From positions 558,001-622,000 of the forward strand of contig NZ_WWER01000001.1 of NCBI RefSeq assembly GCF_009857885.1: a stretch of DNA of 64,000 bases, given 5' to 3'. Each line of letters opens with the position of its first letter. Position 1 is the first letter of the stretch. The stretch is from Pusillimonas sp. TS35 (lineage in GTDB: Bacteria > Pseudomonadota > Gammaproteobacteria > Burkholderiales > Burkholderiaceae_B). The notes below the pieces were generated by a model, which had not been told where the DNA came from, did no database searches, and was given only the letters and a program-made list of their open reading frames with translations. The position numbers and the translations under genes are program-made. Below, one piece after another: positions 33,175 to 41,376 of this stretch.

Positions 33175-35634
33175 CTAGAAGCGCAGATTCATGTCGAACA
33201 TGATGCGTACCTCGCGTTCTCTAACGCCGTCGTAGGGACGCGAAATACCGACGACCGAAGCACCTACATCGAGTACCTGGTTGCTGCGATAGCGCAGCCC
33301 GTAGCCGATGGCGCCCACAGCGCCGCTGCTGAAGCCGCGCTGTGCATAAATGCCGGCGCCAATCATGAAACGCTGCTCCAGGCTAGTGTCATAGCGGCGG
33401 TAGAGCGTATGCGTGAATGCCAGGGCTGGAAGCACGAACAGGTCTGCACGTGGATTGAAGTAGGGGCCGCCTTCCTGCGAGTTGTGCGAACCGCTGAATT
33501 CGAGTTCAAGATCGGTTTGCAGGCGCGGGGAGGCGAACAGGCGCTCTCGGCCGTGCAGGCTGTATTCGACCCGGTTGTTCCCATCCGAGAAGTGCGAGGG
33601 TGCTAGCGCCAACTGCCAGGCACGGCCTTCGTTGGCGTGCCAGCCGATGCGAAACTCGGCGCGGTTGCTTGAAATGTTGGCCAGCAAGGCGCGCAATGGA
33701 GTGGCGCGGGAGCGAAACTCGGCGCTCGCGCCGATCTGCCAGTGATCGTTAAGGTCGACATCGACGCTTGCGCGAAAGCCAGTCTTCACGCCGTGGCCAT
33801 AACTGTTCGCGGATGCATCGAGCTCCGCCTTCAGGTCGCGCCCCCGCCATTCCACGCCCCCACGCATCCAGCGGTAATGTGATTTGCCTTCCTCGAACTC
33901 GGCTTGTGCATAGCCGCCGCCTGCAAAACCGCGCCAATTCTGGTCGATCGGCGCGGTATAGACCACGGTATCGATGCCGGTATCGCCGCTGCCCGACACC
34001 GGGCTATCGGTGGCGATGTCGTGATTGGCGGTTACGCGCAGCTCGGCCTTGTTGTGCACTTCCCAGACCCGGGCCAAGCGCTGCACCTCCCCATTTTCGG
34101 GATTGCGTGCAGTAACGTCGGCCACCAGTAGTTCAGCTTGTCGGTATTCCCTCAATGCTATGGCGGTGTTGGCCTGATCCACTTCAAGCTGCACCGCGCG
34201 CGGTGTCATAGCTTCGGCCATCTTCAGTTCGCGCTCGGCGGCGCGCGGTTGCTCGCGCCCCAGCAGAATCATGGCCAGATCTCCGCGCAGCGTGCTGTTG
34301 TTGGGGGCGGTCTGAAGCAGTGTGCGAACACGCTGTTCAGCACCCTCTGCGTCCCGGGCGTAGTATTGGCCGACCGCTTGGGTATGCGCGGCATACAGGT
34401 ACAGTTCGTTGGGCTGACTAGATGGCTGGCCCTTCAATCGCACCCATTTTGGCTGCTCGCTGACTGCTTGTTCAATGACATCGTCGGCTTCCTCGTAGCG
34501 CTCGCTCTCTTGCAGCGCGTAGTACAGGCCGGTCTGGGCGCTGACGCGTTCGTGGGCGCTCAGGGGGGGAGGAGATTCGTCGCTGAGCAGCAGTTGGTAG
34601 AGCGCGACAGCTTCTTCGGGGCGACGCACCGCCAGGTACGCATCGGCAACGTCGCCCAAGACGTGTCGGGGAATGGGTGTGCCCTCGGCGCGCATGGCTT
34701 CGTATCCGGCGACGACATCCTCGCGCCGGGCCCGTGCATGAAGTGCATGCAGGCGGTCGGCACGGGCACGGTTCAGTTCCGCCCGCGCCGGCTCCCCAAG
34801 CGCCTGCCATTCCGGTATGAGTTTGTCGTAGAGGGCCAGCGCCTGGTCGGCCAGTGCAAAGCGGTCCGACTCTCGCATGCTGGGCAGCACAGCCAGCCGG
34901 GTGAGCTCGGCCGCGCGATCAGCCCATATGACGCGCACTGTGGCGGCGTCGATGCTACCGGGGCTTACTCTGGCCTCTCGCAGCGCGGGGCCGGGCAGGC
35001 CGGCATCGCGCAGCGCGTGTATGTATTCGCGGGTAACGTAGCGTTTGCCCGGCGCGAGCGCAGCGGCGCGTGTTGTGTGCTGAAGCGCAGCGTCGGCGGT
35101 GTGCGCACCGCGTGCCGCATAAGCCTGTGCCAGCGCGATGTCTTCGCTTTCGGGCCATTGCCTCGCGGCCGCTTGCGCGGCGGCCAGCGCCTCATTCCCG
35201 CGTCCGGCATCAGCCAGCACTTTGATTTCACCTACGGCGAAGGCGGTGTGGCGGGGATAGAGTCGCCGGCCGTCCCGATAGAGCACAAGCGATTTATCCC
35301 ATTGCCGGGTATCGCGATAAGCGGCGGCCACTGTGGCGAGCACGTCGGCCGGAGGATGGTTGGGCGTCGGCGTAAGCGCCTCGTACGCCGCAATGGTTTC
35401 AGCGGGGCGCCTGGCCCATGACGCGATCAGCGCGCGATCATAGGCGGCGCGCAAGTCGTGCGGGTATTGTTGGCTGTGCTCCCGAAGCATGGCGAGCGCG
35501 GGTTCGTATTCGCCATTGCGGGCCTGGATGATGAGCGCGTCATACTCATTGCGCGTCAGCGCATGTGCCGGTTGGCCCGCAGCGCCCAGCAATAGGCTCA
35601 ACACACCCATCCATGGAGCTGCCGCCTTTATCAT
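33175..35634 (-). CDS. pgaA: PNAG outer-membrane export porin PgaA
   Basis: 819 residues from the Met at 35632-35634. A signal peptide (about 1-26, PAHA) precedes a TPR superhelix (about 27-500; repeated AL-rich helix pairs) and a C-terminal 16-strand-type beta-barrel (about 520-819) ending in Phe (DMNLRF). PgaA guides deacetylated PNAG through the outer membrane. The longer frame from 35730 would place 32 hydrophilic residues before the signal peptide, so I trimmed it; GGGAAG lies upstream of the chosen ATG. It is the first gene of the pgaABCD operon. Confidence 0.92.
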   Translation of the reverse strand: MIKAAAPWMGVLSLLLGAAGQPAHALTRNEYDALIIQARNGEYEPALAMLREHSQQYPHDLRAAYDRALIASWARRPAETIAAYEALTPTPNHPPADVLATVAAAYRDTRQWDKSLVLYRDGRRLYPRHTAFAVGEIKVLADAGRGNEALAAAQAAARQWPESEDIALAQAYAARGAHTADAALQHTTRAAALAPGKRYVTREYIHALRDAGLPGPALREARVSPGSIDAATVRVIWADRAAELTRLAVLPSMRESDRFALADQALALYDKLIPEWQALGEPARAELNRARADRLHALHARARREDVVAGYEAMRAEGTPIPRHVLGDVADAYLAVRRPEEAVALYQLLLSDESPPPLSAHERVSAQTGLYYALQESERYEEADDVIEQAVSEQPKWVRLKGQPSSQPNELYLYAAHTQAVGQYYARDAEGAEQRVRTLLQTAPNNSTLRGDLAMILLGREQPRAAERELKMAEAMTPRAVQLEVDQANTAIALREYRQAELLVADVTARNPENGEVQRLARVWEVHNKAELRVTANHDIATDSPVSGSGDTGIDTVVYTAPIDQNWRGFAGGGYAQAEFEEGKSHYRWMRGGVEWRGRDLKAELDASANSYGHGVKTGFRASVDVDLNDHWQIGASAEFRSRATPLRALLANISSNRAEFRIGWHANEGRAWQLALAPSHFSDGNNRVEYSLHGRERLFASPRLQTDLELEFSGSHNSQEGGPYFNPRADLFVLPALAFTHTLYRRYDTSLEQRFMIGAGIYAQRGFSSGAVGAIGYGLRYRSNQVLDVGASVVGISRPYDGVREREVRIMFDMNLRF

Positions 35635-36080
35635 GGCCGTCTTCCCGGCGGTCCGGACGCGCGCCACGATGCGTTCGTACTCAGCGTTATGCGCATGCTC
35701 TTCCCCTGATTGGCCGCCGCGTATTGCCAATTGCCGCTGACTGTATCCGCTTGTTTGCGGCCTGCTTTGCGGCCGTCTCGCTGCCTCCCTGATGCAGCCG
35801 TTACGGTCAGTAAGCTTTCTAATGTCTAGATACAGACCTTGAGGTAATGTTAGAGATGGCTTGGCACTGCTACATGCGATGTTCGTCTTAAGCCTGCCGG
35901 GCTTGATGGCTTAGCGCGGATGGTATCGGCTATGTGGTCGAGGATAGGGAAGTAGCGAGGACGAGGCGGCCAAAGAGGGGGGGATGGGTGGCGGATATTT
36001 ACGCAGGATATCGATCGGGGAGAAAGGTATCGATGGTGGATATTGCTGCGGCCAGCTACGGCGGTATCGTGGTAGCGCAA
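35635..36080. other. Gap upstream of pgaA
   Basis: 446 bases with no supportable gene. It should hold the pga promoter, since the region at about 35810-35860 is less GC-rich, but no convincing -35/-10 pair was found. The rest shows no recognisable feature apart from a small AAGCC/GGCTT hairpin near 35890. Confidence 0.45.
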
Positions 36081-36465: not shown

Positions 36466-37812
36466 TCACGGCAGGTTTTGCAGAACTGTGAAAACGGTTT
36501 TGGTCAGGAAGGAAAGGTCTTCGTCAGGCATGGTAAACGATGGCGTCAGGTAGACAGTGCGGCCGAATGGCCGTATCCATGCGCCTGCATCGATAAAGCG
36601 CTGGCGCAGTGCATCGCGGTTGGGCTGGCGGGCGAGCTCCACAACACCGATCGCCCCCATCACGCGCACATCCTGCACACCTGGCAGGGCGGCGCATGGC
36701 GTCAGGCCGGCACGCAGCGCGGCTTCAATGTCGCGCACTTGGTTCAAGCGCGGTTCGCGCTCGAACAGATCAAGCGACGCATGGGCGGCGGCGCAGGCCA
36801 GCGCATTGCCCATATACGTAGGCCCATGCATCAGCGCACGAGCGGGATCATCGGACCAGAACGCCTCGAACACCTTGCCGCCGGCCACCGTGGCGGCCAG
36901 CGGCAGCGTGCCGCCAGTAAGCGCCTTGGAAAGCGTGATGATGTCGGGCATGATGCCGGCCTGTTGAAATGCGAACATCGAGCCGGTGCGGCCAAAGCCT
37001 GTGAAGATCTCGTCGAAGATCAGTAGTGTGCTGTGGCGGTCGGCAAGGCGGCGCAGGCGCCGCAGCACAACGGGTGGATGCATCAGCATGCCACCCGCGC
37101 CTTGTACGAGCGGCTCAATCAGCAGGGCCGCGATCTGGCCTTCATGCTGCGTCAGCAAGGTGTCGAGCGCGGCTTCGCTTTCGTCGTCCACTGGCACAGG
37201 CGCAATGATCTGGGCAGGGAAGACACCATCGAAGGCCGTGTGCATGCCGACATCGGGATCGCATACGGCCATGGTGCCCAAGGTGTCGCCATGATAGCCG
37301 CCTTTGAAGGCCACCACCTTGCGGCGCAGGGGCTCGCCCAGATTGAACCAATACTGCATGGCCATCTTGAGCGCGACTTCCACACTAACCGATCCGGATT
37401 CAGTGAAAAACACGCGGTCCAGGCCAGGCCCCAGCAGCCCCGCCAGCCTTTTTGCCAACGTGAGTGCAGGCTCATGTACCAGCCCGCCAAACATCACATG
37501 CGGCATGGTGTCGAGTTGTTCGCGCACTGCTTGCGCAATGTGTGGATGGTTGTAGCCATGGCAGGCTGTCCACCACGATGCAATACCGTCCACCAGCTTG
37601 CGCCCATCGGCCAGCTCGATGTGGCAGCCGTGGGTGCGCACGACCGCTGGTGACGGCGCGGCGGTTTTCATTTGCGTGTAGGGTAGCCAGATATGCGGCA
37701 TGCCTTCGGCCATCCATGATGGCGGCGGCACGTTGGAGTTGTGGCGGGCAGACTGGCTATGGGTGACGGCGGGCGTTGGCATGGTGGGCATGGCGGCGGG
37801 AGGGGGCTTCAT
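36466..37812 (-). CDS. bioA: Adenosylmethionine-8-amino-7-oxononanoate aminotransferase
   Basis: A 448-residue class III PLP aminotransferase. Family marks include IWLPYTQMKTA, GIASWWTACHGYNHPHI, FKGGYHGDTLGTMAVCD, LIFDEIFTGFGRTGSMFA and the PLP lysine in LSKALTGGTLPLA. BioA converts 8-amino-7-oxononanoate (KAPA) to 7,8-diaminononanoate with S-adenosylmethionine as amino donor. The N-terminal ~35 residues are Pro/Ala/Met-rich and several Met codons could serve as start. It is divergent from bioF, so one spacer controls both biotin transcripts. Confidence 0.95.
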   Translation of the reverse strand: MKPPPAAMPTMPTPAVTHSQSARHNSNVPPPSWMAEGMPHIWLPYTQMKTAAPSPAVVRTHGCHIELADGRKLVDGIASWWTACHGYNHPHIAQAVREQLDTMPHVMFGGLVHEPALTLAKRLAGLLGPGLDRVFFTESGSVSVEVALKMAMQYWFNLGEPLRRKVVAFKGGYHGDTLGTMAVCDPDVGMHTAFDGVFPAQIIAPVPVDDESEAALDTLLTQHEGQIAALLIEPLVQGAGGMLMHPPVVLRRLRRLADRHSTLLIFDEIFTGFGRTGSMFAFQQAGIMPDIITLSKALTGGTLPLAATVAGGKVFEAFWSDDPARALMHGPTYMGNALACAAAHASLDLFEREPRLNQVRDIEAALRAGLTPCAALPGVQDVRVMGAIGVVELARQPNRDALRQRFIDAGAWIRPFGRTVYLTPSFTMPDEDLSFLTKTVFTVLQNLP

Positions 37813-37967: not shown

Positions 37968-39191
37968 ATGAGCCGCCTCGATTCGCTATGCCTGGATTAC
38001 CTCGCCGACGCTGCGCGGCGGAACCGTTTGCGTGTGCTGCGCACACGCGATCCGGCGGGCCCGGGGCGGGTGACCGACGGCGGCCGTGTCATGCTCAATT
38101 TTTCCAGCAATGACTACCTCGGCTTGTCGCAGCATCCTGCTGTAGTGGATCGATCGCGCGAATGGGCGGCGCGTTTTGGTGCGGGCGCGCAGGCCTCGCG
38201 GCTGGTGTGCGGCAGCTTCAGTGCGCACGAACAGGTCGAGCGCAAGCTCGCGCGAGCCAAAGGCACAGAAGCCGCATTATTGCTGGCATCCGGATGGCAG
38301 GCCAATGCGGCTGTACTGCCGGCATTGTTGCAGCTTGCCGCACGGGAGCCTGGCACGCTGCAGGTCTATACCGACAAACTCAATCACGCCAGCCTGCACC
38401 ATGGCTGTACTGCCGCGGGGGTGCGCCAGGTTCGTTTTCGCCACAACGACCTTGATCACCTCGAAACCCTGCTGCAGAGCAGGGCGGGCGATCCGGGGCG
38501 GCGCTTCATCGTGACCGAAAGCGTGTTCAGTATGGACGGCGATCGCTGCGACGTCGCACGCCTGGCCGATATTGCGCGGCGCCATGACGCCTTCGTCTAC
38601 CTAGACGAAGCGCATGCGACCGGTGTGCTGGGGCCGCATGGCATGGGCCTGGCAGGTCTGGTTCCGGGCGGCATCGATCTGGCCATGGGTACGTTCAGCA
38701 AGGCTGCGGGCGCTTTTGGCGCCTATGTGGCGGGCTCCCGCGCATTGTGCGATTACCTGGTCAACGCCTGTGGCGGCGTTATCTACACGACCGCACTGCC
38801 GCCGGCGGTGCTGGGCGCCATCGACGCCGCACTCGACCTTATCCCCGCAATGGGTGCCGAGCGCGCGCGGCTGGCAACGCATGGCGATACACTGCGTGCC
38901 GCATTGCGAGCGGCGGGCATGCAGTGCGGTCTATCCAGCACACAGATCGTGCCTGCCATGGTAGGCGATGAGCGCGTTGCGCTGGACATGGCCGCAGACA
39001 TCGCGGCGCAGGGCATGCTGCTTACCGCGATCCGGCCACCGACGGTGCCGCATGGCACCAGTAGGCTGCGCGTCGCATTGAGCGCGGCTCATACAGAAGA
39101 AGATATTCATACACTGGCGCAGGCATTGGCTGCGGCGTGGGCGCGGCGGGCCGGTACTGCGCGGGAGACAGATACTGATGATATGCATTGA
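37968..39191 (+). CDS. bioF: 8-amino-7-oxononanoate synthase
   Basis: A 407-residue alpha-oxoamine synthase. Family marks include MLNFSSNDYLGLSQHP, GSRLVCG-like ASRLVCGSFSAHEQVERKLA, TDKLNHASLHHG, FVYLDEAHATGVLG and the PLP lysine in GTFSKAAGAFGAYVAG. It condenses pimeloyl-ACP with alanine to KAPA. The start is the ATG at 37968 (MSRLDSL); an upstream frame from 37884 is not supported. Its last 14 bases overlap the start of the fused bio gene, so translation is probably coupled. Confidence 0.95.
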   Translation: MSRLDSLCLDYLADAARRNRLRVLRTRDPAGPGRVTDGGRVMLNFSSNDYLGLSQHPAVVDRSREWAARFGAGAQASRLVCGSFSAHEQVERKLARAKGTEAALLLASGWQANAAVLPALLQLAAREPGTLQVYTDKLNHASLHHGCTAAGVRQVRFRHNDLDHLETLLQSRAGDPGRRFIVTESVFSMDGDRCDVARLADIARRHDAFVYLDEAHATGVLGPHGMGLAGLVPGGIDLAMGTFSKAAGAFGAYVAGSRALCDYLVNACGGVIYTTALPPAVLGAIDAALDLIPAMGAERARLATHGDTLRAALRAAGMQCGLSSTQIVPAMVGDERVALDMAADIAAQGMLLTAIRPPTVPHGTSRLRVALSAAHTEEDIHTLAQALAAAWARRAGTARETDTDDMH

Positions 39192-41376
39192 TGCAATGTC
39201 TGGCGCTGCGACCGGCGCGTGGGCGGGGGTCGCCTCTGGCGGCCGCCCCACGCTGGTGTTCGTGCATGGTTGGTCGTTCGACCCCGCGTTCTGGGCGCCG
39301 TTGCGGGCCGCGTTGCACGCCTGGCCGCAGCATACGCTGGATCTAGGCTATTACGGCGGAGAAGCCGCGTCCGCGATGCTTCCCGAGGGGCCGTTGGTCA
39401 TCGTCGGCCATTCGTTCGGCTTCATGCATGCACTCGATGCGTTTGCAGGTCTGGACGCGCGCACGGCTGCGTGGATATCAATCAATGGTTTCGCGCGGTT
39501 TTCCGCTGGCGAAGGCTTTCCCCAAGGGGTGGCTGCGCGGGTGGTGCAACGCATGTTGGCGCGGCTGCCACAGGCGCCGGATGCGGTCGTTGCGGATTTC
39601 CGCCAGCGCTGCGGTGCGCACACCGATCAACGGCCCTTGCGGCTCGAGACGCTGCAGCGTGATCTCTCCGCCATGCTGAGCGGCGACGCGCGCAGCCGCT
39701 TGGCCCGGCGGCATGTACCGCTGCTGGCGCTTGCAGGCGACGCCGACCCGATCGTGCCGGCGGCCATGACGGCGGCCCAATTTTCCCCGCACCATATTCG
39801 CTGGCGCGCTGGGGGCGGGCATCTGTTGCCCTGTACCGATGCTCAATGGTGCGCGGATCACATCCAGATGTTCCTGGCGAAGCTGGCCGGCGGCGATACG
39901 GCGCGCCGGGCGCGTATCGGCCGGGCCTTTGGCGCTGCTGCGGATACTTACGCAGGGCATGCCGCAGTACAGTCCATTGTTGCAGACGACCTGATGCGCC
40001 GTATTGCGGCACTCGATTTACCCGTGCGGCCGCGCATCCTGGAGATCGGCTGCGGCACCGGCAATCTGACGCGCAAACTGGCGGCGCATTTTACTGATGC
40101 GGAGTGGATCATCACCGATTTGGCGCCGGCCATGGTGCAAGCGACGCGCGACACCGTAAGCTTGGGGGGGCGGGCCCGTTTTCTGGTGATGGACGGTGAG
40201 TTTCCCAGCCTCCTGCTGGGCACCGAGGCGGACGCCGAGCAAGGTTTTGATCTCATCTGCTCCAGCATGGCCGTGCAATGGTTCGATGATCTCAATGGCG
40301 GCCTGAGGCGGCTCGCCGCACTGCTGCGCCCCGGAGGATGCCTCTGCGTGTCCACGCTGGCGGGCGGCACCTTTGAAGAGTGGGGCGTCGCGCATGTCGA
40401 AGAGGGCTTGATCGCCGGCACACCCGCATATCCGGCCGCAGAGGATATCGGCGCCGGCCTGGGTCTGTGCGGCAGGGTCGACGTGCAGCGCGTGGTGCAT
40501 GCGTGTGGCAGCGGGCGCGCCTTTGCGCGGGGCCTGAAGGCGATTGGAGCGGGGACGCCAGCCGCGTCGGCCATACCGTTGAGTCCGCCGCAGTTGCGCC
40601 GCGTATGCGCCCGCTTCGATGCGCAGGGTGCCCGGGTAACCTACAACGTAGCCTATGGCCTATGGCGCAAAGCGCGCCTGCCGCGCGGCGTATTCGTCAC
40701 AGGCACGGACACCGATGTGGGCAAGACGCTGGTCTCGGCGATCTTGGCCAAGGCGTGGCAGGCTGATTACTGGAAGCCTTTCCAGACAGGCGTAGCCGAA
40801 CTACCGGCTGATACGGATACGGTCGCAGCACTGCTGGGGGCGCCGGGCGCCGGCGAGCGTGCACATGTGCTGCACCCGCCCGCTTATATATTGCAGGCCG
40901 CCTTGTCGCCGCTGGCGGCGGCGCAATGCGAGAACGTAGAGATCCGTGCCAACGCCCTGCGCCTGCCCGACACCGCAGCGCCGCTGGTAGTGGAAGGTGC
41001 GGGCGGCCTGTATGTGCCAGTGGACGAAACGACCATGATGATAGACCTGGCCGAATCGTTGGCCCTGCCGGTGGTTCTGGTGGCACGCAGCACCCTAGGC
41101 ACCATCAACCATACGCTACTGAGCCTGCGTGCGCTTCGGGCGCGAGGCATACTGGTGCTGGGGGTGGTAATGAGCGGGCCGCCTTCGTCGGGCAACGCCG
41201 ATGCCATCGGCAGATTCGGCGGCGTACCCGTGATCGCGCAGATCCCGCACATGGATAGGCTGGACGCTGATGCTGTTGCCGCTGCGGCGGCTGCCATCCC
41301 TGCGCTGGAGGCCTTGATGACAGGTAGCTGCAGGCCGGGCCAGCAAGGCCCGGACGATATGCGCGGCGCGGCCTGA
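39178..41376 (+). CDS. Trifunctional biotin protein: carboxylesterase-BioC-BioD fusion
   Basis: A single uninterrupted 732-residue frame with three domains. Residues 1-240 are an alpha/beta hydrolase like BioH (VFVHGWSFDPAFW; nucleophile Ser79 in GHSFG; probable Asp190 and His215), expected to cleave pimeloyl-ACP methyl ester. Residues about 245-500 are BioC, malonyl-ACP O-methyltransferase (RIGRAFGAAADTYAGHAA; SAM motif ILEIGCGTGNL at 287-297). Residues about 503-730 are BioD, dethiobiotin synthetase (P-loop GTDTDVGKT at 509-517; KPFQTG; VEGAGGLYVP). The chain thus holds the first two dedicated steps and the penultimate step of the pathway, while BioF and BioA are separate. Start ATG at 39178, or 39196. 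Confidence 0.92.
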   Translation: MICIDAMSGAATGAWAGVASGGRPTLVFVHGWSFDPAFWAPLRAALHAWPQHTLDLGYYGGEAASAMLPEGPLVIVGHSFGFMHALDAFAGLDARTAAWISINGFARFSAGEGFPQGVAARVVQRMLARLPQAPDAVVADFRQRCGAHTDQRPLRLETLQRDLSAMLSGDARSRLARRHVPLLALAGDADPIVPAAMTAAQFSPHHIRWRAGGGHLLPCTDAQWCADHIQMFLAKLAGGDTARRARIGRAFGAAADTYAGHAAVQSIVADDLMRRIAALDLPVRPRILEIGCGTGNLTRKLAAHFTDAEWIITDLAPAMVQATRDTVSLGGRARFLVMDGEFPSLLLGTEADAEQGFDLICSSMAVQWFDDLNGGLRRLAALLRPGGCLCVSTLAGGTFEEWGVAHVEEGLIAGTPAYPAAEDIGAGLGLCGRVDVQRVVHACGSGRAFARGLKAIGAGTPAASAIPLSPPQLRRVCARFDAQGARVTYNVAYGLWRKARLPRGVFVTGTDTDVGKTLVSAILAKAWQADYWKPFQTGVAELPADTDTVAALLGAPGAGERAHVLHPPAYILQAALSPLAAAQCENVEIRANALRLPDTAAPLVVEGAGGLYVPVDETTMMIDLAESLALPVVLVARSTLGTINHTLLSLRALRARGILVLGVVMSGPPSSGNADAIGRFGGVPVIAQIPHMDRLDADAVAAAAAAIPALEALMTGSCRPGQQGPDDMRGAA

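Follow-up and report, generated by a model that had tools for sequence, protein, structure and literature searches.

The stretch of DNA analyzed here (the window; 64,000 bp of contig NZ_WWER01000001.1 of Pusillimonas sp. TS35, forward strand positions 558,001 to 622,000) contains an open reading frame (ORF) in which three proteins of biotin synthesis, a BioH-like esterase (H), a BioC-like methyltransferase (C) and BioD (D), are joined to a single chain. The coordinates of this triple ORF, its domains and associated genes are compiled in Table 1. The stop-free translation, which lies within an open frame of 764 codons and could alternatively start at ATG 39196 (Met7), comprised 732 residues; the remaining two forward frames across the same region were interrupted by 27 and 12 stops. 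NCBIfam models matched residues 22-133 (bioH, the better of two stretches), 250-498 (BioC) and 506-665 (bioD). Translation and domain order thus bore out an original prediction, made from the sequence alone, of an uninterrupted esterase-BioC-BioD frame, and the esterase residues it had singled out were found at the same positions: Ser79 within GHSFG, Asp190 and His215. The S-adenosylmethionine (SAM) motif LEIGCGTGN begins at residue 288 and the P-loop GTDTDVGKT at residue 509. Sequence matches of the whole chain in the PDB were led by BioD chains, followed by one BioC and then by other methyltransferases.

Table 1. Biotin genes and domains in the window, and a second BioC-like gene of the same genome
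Feature	Position	Strand	Remarks
Triple ORF, BioH-like + BioC-like + BioD	39178..41376	+	732 aa, 76.5 kDa
BioH-like alpha/beta hydrolase domain, about residues 1-237	39178..39888	+	Ser79, Asp190, His215
H/C junction, about 5 residues	39889..39903	+	in-frame ATG at 39868
BioC-like SAM methyltransferase domain, about residues 243-500	39904..40677	+	motif I LEIGCGTGN at 288
BioD domain, from about residue 501	40678..41373	+	P-loop GTDTDVGKT at 509
bioF, 407 aa from ATG 37968, longest ORF from TTG 37884	37968..39191	+	3' end overlaps triple ORF start by 14 nt
bioA, divergent from bioF	36466..37812	-	separate protein
Second BioC-like methyltransferase	G000:C19, about 265927-266895		divergent from comF-like gene

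Domains of the chain and their surroundings

BioD is the only domain of the chain that reaches its curated cut-off (130.1 bits on the NCBIfam model TIGR00347, cut-off 83.3). Besides the P-loop it contains WKPFQTG, and both patterns were detected in all 65 BioD segments of the clade, the window included. BioC and BioD are joined without an added linker. As the closest in-frame start codon before BioD (TTG 40594) lies 28 codons upstream, BioD of the window is probably made only within the chain. The BioC-like domain is located between the esterase and BioD, behind bioF; the pattern of its SAM motif recurred in all 63 close-clade BioC segments. Between the bioH and BioC matches there are only 2 residues in the window versus 5 to 63 in five H-C-fused genomes of the same clade.

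The original prediction had not recognized the esterase as an obvious BioH, BioG, BioJ, BioK or BioV type. This has to be revised, since several lines of evidence place the domain closest to BioH. In the whole chain bioH was the best hydrolase model, and when the esterase segments of the window and 13 relatives were scanned singly, the bioH model matched all 14, the next-best model seven. A profile of the 14 segments, built without E. coli BioH, gave a PDB list topped by the BioH entries 4nmw, 6k5e and 1m33, by a narrow margin (E values of 3.4e-14 to 2.3e-13 versus 4.6e-13 for arylesterases). With E. coli BioH the domain shares 24% identity in an alignment of 211 columns; S79, D190 and H215 correspond to S82, D207 and H235, and Arg121 and Arg125 to R138 and R142; the triad and both arginines were invariant in all 14 rows. 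R142 and R144 of the chain lie near R155 and R159 of E. coli BioH, without a one-to-one match. The four lid arginines R138, R142, R155 and R159 of BioH are reported to bind acyl carrier protein (ACP) (PMC9302846). We relied on alignments because pattern counts for the esterase acid (55/60) and for VEGAGG (58/65) were too strict, the first one missing even the Asp190 stretch of the window. Among the NCBIfam and Pfam families matched by the 14 segments there was no model of BioG, BioJ, BioK, BioV or another non-orthologous esterase, though these libraries may not cover all types. As it falls well short of the curated cut-off, the esterase is named BioH-like. Operon-encoded BioH proteins are described as a clade apart from free-standing ones (PMC5438404), a description that the domain of the window would fit.

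The neighboring bioF and bioA have their own ORFs beside the triple ORF, as had been stated before, and bioB was found on another contig. A search of the genome with the bioD model returned a single match, the triple ORF of the window. No palindrome resembling a BirA box was found in the 64-kb window with a pattern of one fixed spacing, allowing three mismatches. Close to the bio genes, a gene for a PgaA-type poly-N-acetylglucosamine export porin was noticed (33175-35730, minus strand).

Fusion states and phylogeny of related loci

Searches with the window protein covered 399 genomes from the order (matches in 350 at E 0.001, at most two candidate places scored per genome), 268 genomes of the family (158 matching at 1e-8, at most four places per genome) and five genomes of the genus. 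Altogether 74 regions were inspected, of which 65 belonged to a close clade of the family, two (G003 and G442) to the same family outside this clade and seven to other families. With the window, 66 close-clade loci were available, whose fusion state was scored by a stop or frame change between the domain matches. This survey, which had been suggested along with the original prediction, disclosed the H-C-D architecture in three loci, the window, G427 and G423. H and C were fused and D apart in five loci (G469, G207, G505, G504, G325), C and D were fused and H apart in 46, and all three were apart in seven (G470, G471, G578, G579, G407, G419, G437). In three further loci (G503, G507, G508) C and D were apart and no esterase was found next to bioC, and in two (G401, G434) only BioD was present in the inspected stretch. 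Outside the close clade, G003 was completely split, and neither H nor C was found in G442; the remaining family genomes gave weaker or no matches and, G003 and G442 being the only ones inspected by region, a divergent triple could be missed there.

Some loci deserve comment. The 46 C-D fusions consist of 45 scored by script and G418, which we added because one stop-free piece spans 237-716; the script had scored it as split since its best BioD match was a downstream copy. In this locus (L095; G418:C15:526500-535200) the C-D fusion at 528550-529959 is followed by BioC-tail/BioD stretches at 530917-531777 and 533901-534671, which may be partial copies in tandem or a repeat introduced by the assembly. 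A BioF-BioH-BioC fusion suspected in G325 from a frame of 951 codons was rejected, as bioF lies in another frame. In L139, L140 and L141 (G503, G507, G508) bioF is directly followed by bioC; the esterase may be located elsewhere or be of another type.

Split junctions mostly showed short overlaps of the adjacent genes. With G418 left out and the candidate nearest to the stop taken as start, some of these starts being uncertain, 36 of 52 split H/C junctions overlapped by 4 nt and eight by 1 nt, and of 15 split C/D junctions eight overlapped by 4 nt, three by 8 nt and two by 11 nt. Hydrolase and bioC coding sequences have been reported to overlap often and to seem hard-wired in translation (PMC4751477). 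In G414, G412 and G425, H and C share one frame with a TGA in between, and the fused relatives G427 and G423 lack this TGA as well as the following start. At the C/D junction G407, G419 and G437 are split, whereas their relatives G409, G410 and G417 are fused; apart from some substitutions, the two groups differ here by an indel of one base within an A-rich run. The C-D-split loci L118-L120 were nested among C-D-fused relatives and a one-base indel apart from them (compared with L108, L109 and L112), which would be compatible with a recent fission.

To place the triples, a quick three-domain tree of 63 rows was calculated under LG+G4, leaving out G418, G401 and G434. The window fell into a clade of nine rows (Shimodaira-Hasegawa-like approximate likelihood ratio test, SH-aLRT, 100), together with five H-C-fused rows and three rows in which the esterase was not found. 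G427 and G423 resided in a clade of 36 rows (SH-aLRT 100), together with 31 C-D-fused and three split rows. A careful tree of 29 rows (27 of the 63 rows and two of Azospirillum) agreed with these two placements. On this tree, holding the three triples together was rejected (log-likelihood 170.6 lower; approximately unbiased test, p-AU 3.74e-41), a test that was made after the first tree had been seen. A tree of BioC alone, with 43 rows, likewise placed the window in one clade and G427 and G423 in the other (96/96 and 98/97), although several of its deeper branches were weak. As it did not resolve G427 and G423 as sisters, H-C state changes numbered three on this tree versus two on the larger one, counts which by themselves give no direction. 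Probably, H and C were joined first in the lineage of the window and D was added later, while for G427 and G423 we read the opposite order, C-D first and then H.

Interpretation and alternatives

We consider it probable (about 0.78) that three neighboring genes (gene order bioF-bioH-bioC-bioD) have fused naturally to give this chain, and that their products work as independent enzymes, equimolar and co-translated, without channelling. With relatives that have the genes apart, fused in pairs or, in one other lineage, all fused by a different route, the overlap of adjacent genes appears to have brought about the fusion as a side effect, and not a need to pass on substrates. It would have arisen through the loss of short stop/start overlaps, probably first at H-C, a fusion seen also in relatives, and afterwards at C-D. 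The chain would fold as three largely independent enzymes. By methylating malonyl-ACP, its BioC domain would let the fatty-acid machinery begin to make pimelate; the BioH-like domain would cleave the methyl ester of pimeloyl-ACP, and BioD would close the ureido ring later. Since E. coli BioD is a homodimer, the chain probably dimerizes through this domain. Production as one chain would make the three activities equimolar and co-translated, from which a fixed stoichiometry should follow. A farther-reaching proposal, that a working trifunctional BioH-BioC-BioD enzyme was reached twice by opposite routes and selected to lock the entry (BioC), gate (BioH) and late (BioD) enzymes in equal amounts, a dosage control via flipped gene overlaps, is in our opinion doubtful.

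The original prediction had raised the question of channelling, i.e., that the domains were fused to pass on intermediates or ACP. Such a true multienzyme channel might be suspected because C-D and H-C fusions recur, and because BioWF, a fusion of consecutive enzymes, has been proposed to hold a tunnel (PMC9544090). The activities fused here are non-consecutive, however: the pathway begins with BioC, BioH comes into play once two rounds of elongation are completed, and then BioF, BioA and BioD follow (PMC3494674, PMC9544090). Because two elongation rounds separate BioC from BioH, and BioF and BioA separate BioH from BioD, we infer that substrates would not be handed over between the domains. 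The same difficulty has been remarked for BioGC (PMC3494674). BioF-BioH is the only adjacent pair that acts consecutively, and this junction was fused in none of 65 loci, as was the F-C junction in none of three; in four of the 72 loci the inspected stretch had no bioF, and two members of this set, L032 and L133, appear to be one organism. A consecutive pair that is fused in none of these loci speaks for genes fused because they were adjacent, with equimolar products, and against channelling. As close relatives moreover have either pair fused, or none, we regard a channel as quite improbable, and the question raised earlier found no support.

A number of observations weigh against a natural, functional fusion, and they lead to two further alternatives. 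The C-D join of the window rests on one assembly of 25 contigs and was present in only one of the five genomes searched in the genus, and a structure prediction of the whole chain, based on three partial homologues, was unusable (mean predicted local distance difference test, pLDDT, 49.2; predicted template modeling score, pTM, 0.34). Over the full model TIGR02072 the BioC domain gave 134.8 bits, less than the cut-off of 184.95, yet this was the top model for the chain. On the bioH model TIGR01738 the esterase attained 45.2 bits in the chain and 50.5 bits as domain alone, with a cut-off of 206.95 and 406.7 bits for E. coli BioH. In addition, the BioC model found five matches in the genome (E 1e-5), all under the curated cut-off, the best of which was not the fused domain (138.3 bits) but a methyltransferase of 322 residues on contig C19 (149.5 bits); the remaining three gave 38 to 44 bits. 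Thus, the fused domain is not the only BioC-model match of the genome. Counterparts of the C19 protein, 69-75% identical, exist in all four other genomes of the genus, whatever their fusion state, and within the genus the C19 protein is more conserved than the fused domain. Another hydrolase of the genome reached 81 bits on the bioH model, more than the fused domain; its best model was 3-oxoadipate enol-lactonase (126.7 bits, also under the respective cut-off).

These scores would suit a decayed or drifted esterase or methyltransferase domain, whose step would be taken by another protein, such as the C19 protein beside comF or another hydrolase, the genome having other alpha/beta hydrolases and three related genomes showing bioF followed by bioC without an esterase. 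Against this speak the intact triad and the two arginines corresponding to ACP-binding positions, the SAM motif conserved throughout the close clade, and the fact that the two other triples and Azospirillum are also under the BioC and BioH cut-offs, the latter (162.9 bits on the BioC model) having a complete bio operon. The match of the C19 protein begins only at model position 18, the part that aligns with the fused domain shows about 21% identity, and the protein occurs in the genus whatever the fusion state. We take it to be a paralogue outside the biotin operon, which may share in biotin synthesis, and a stand-in esterase may likewise exist elsewhere in the genome, but decay of a fused domain seems improbable to us. 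An error joining separate genes had already been named with the original prediction as what could undo it; here, a separate BioD gene would have been connected by a base lost or gained at the C/D junction. A small error would be enough in principle, as illustrated by the one-base indel between fused and split C-D frames in another lineage. In the window, the +1 frame has stops at 40637 and 40649, ahead of the BioC end, and the first stops past the junction are at 40793 (+1) and 40764 (+2), so that both alternative frames are stop-free from the BioC end to 40764. Together with the lack of an in-frame start within 27 codons before BioD, this means that one wrong base would not restore the usual end of BioC along with the usual start of BioD; any single shift there would leave both ends abnormal. 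Around the H/C junction (39840-39990) stops are absent from all three forward frames. An H-C fusion is also present in five genomes of the same clade. An assembly or sequencing error is the explanation that we believe least.

Occurrence beyond the family and comparison with known fusions

A scan of named genomes gave a single relative, Pigmentiphaga litoralis. A scan of 398 genomes of the phylum (94 matching at 1e-25, at most two candidate places scored per genome) yielded, besides the window, stop-free one-piece C-D frames in G1322, G1049, G1278 and G1338. C and D are probably contained in one predicted frame of 547 codons in G1276, and G1095 and G1020 possibly encode H-C fusions; a one-frame H-C-D was not among the matches listed besides the window. 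Of 369 genomes of the class, 320 had a match to the BioC model at 1e-20, some of these perhaps being paralogues of the C19 kind, and the longest frame among the matches listed comprised 630 codons, too short for a triple. Out of 72,556 plasmid records 188 matched; seven covered at least 80% of the chain, all of them from Azospirillum. The three plasmids that were inspected harbored consecutive genes for BioF, the esterase, a C-D fusion (with the annotation bioD), BioA and BioB. The protein of Azospirillum argentinense plasmid p3 (L165, 4630-6039; WP_137117977.1; 469 residues) is named only dethiobiotin synthase, so the BioC half of BioC-BioD proteins can hide under this label.

In the open-access full-text literature, which leaves most subscription papers outside, we recognized neither a BioC-BioD fusion nor a triple one. 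The view that no triple fusion is well described thus stands within this coverage; of the two-domain BioC fusions that had been called known, esterase-BioC is in print (BioGC, BioHC), whereas BioC-BioD was not found in print though it is common in the clade. The A. argentinense protein joins BioC directly to BioD as in the window, with a separate esterase gene just upstream that overlaps by 4 nt. BioHC of Cellvibrio japonicus (CJA_0428) and Saccharophagus degradans (Sde_3137) is described as BioH followed by BioC in one chain, as in the window, but with 502 and 558 residues these proteins of another lineage are too short to include BioD as well (PMC9894557). Bacteroides fragilis BioGC also joins a pimeloyl-ACP methyl ester esterase to BioC, and both functions were shown by complementation; as described, it differs in that BioG is not BioH-like and BioD is absent (PMC3494674). 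BioAD of Arabidopsis and BioWF of Desulfosporosinus and Corynebacterium are natural fusions of biotin enzymes too, but of other enzymes and of consecutive steps (PMC9544090). The chain of the window extends the printed two-enzyme fusions to three, and the natural series of separate, H-C, C-D and H-C-D forms, with one junction shifting by a one-base indel, allows one to ask what benefit a fusion has without channelling.

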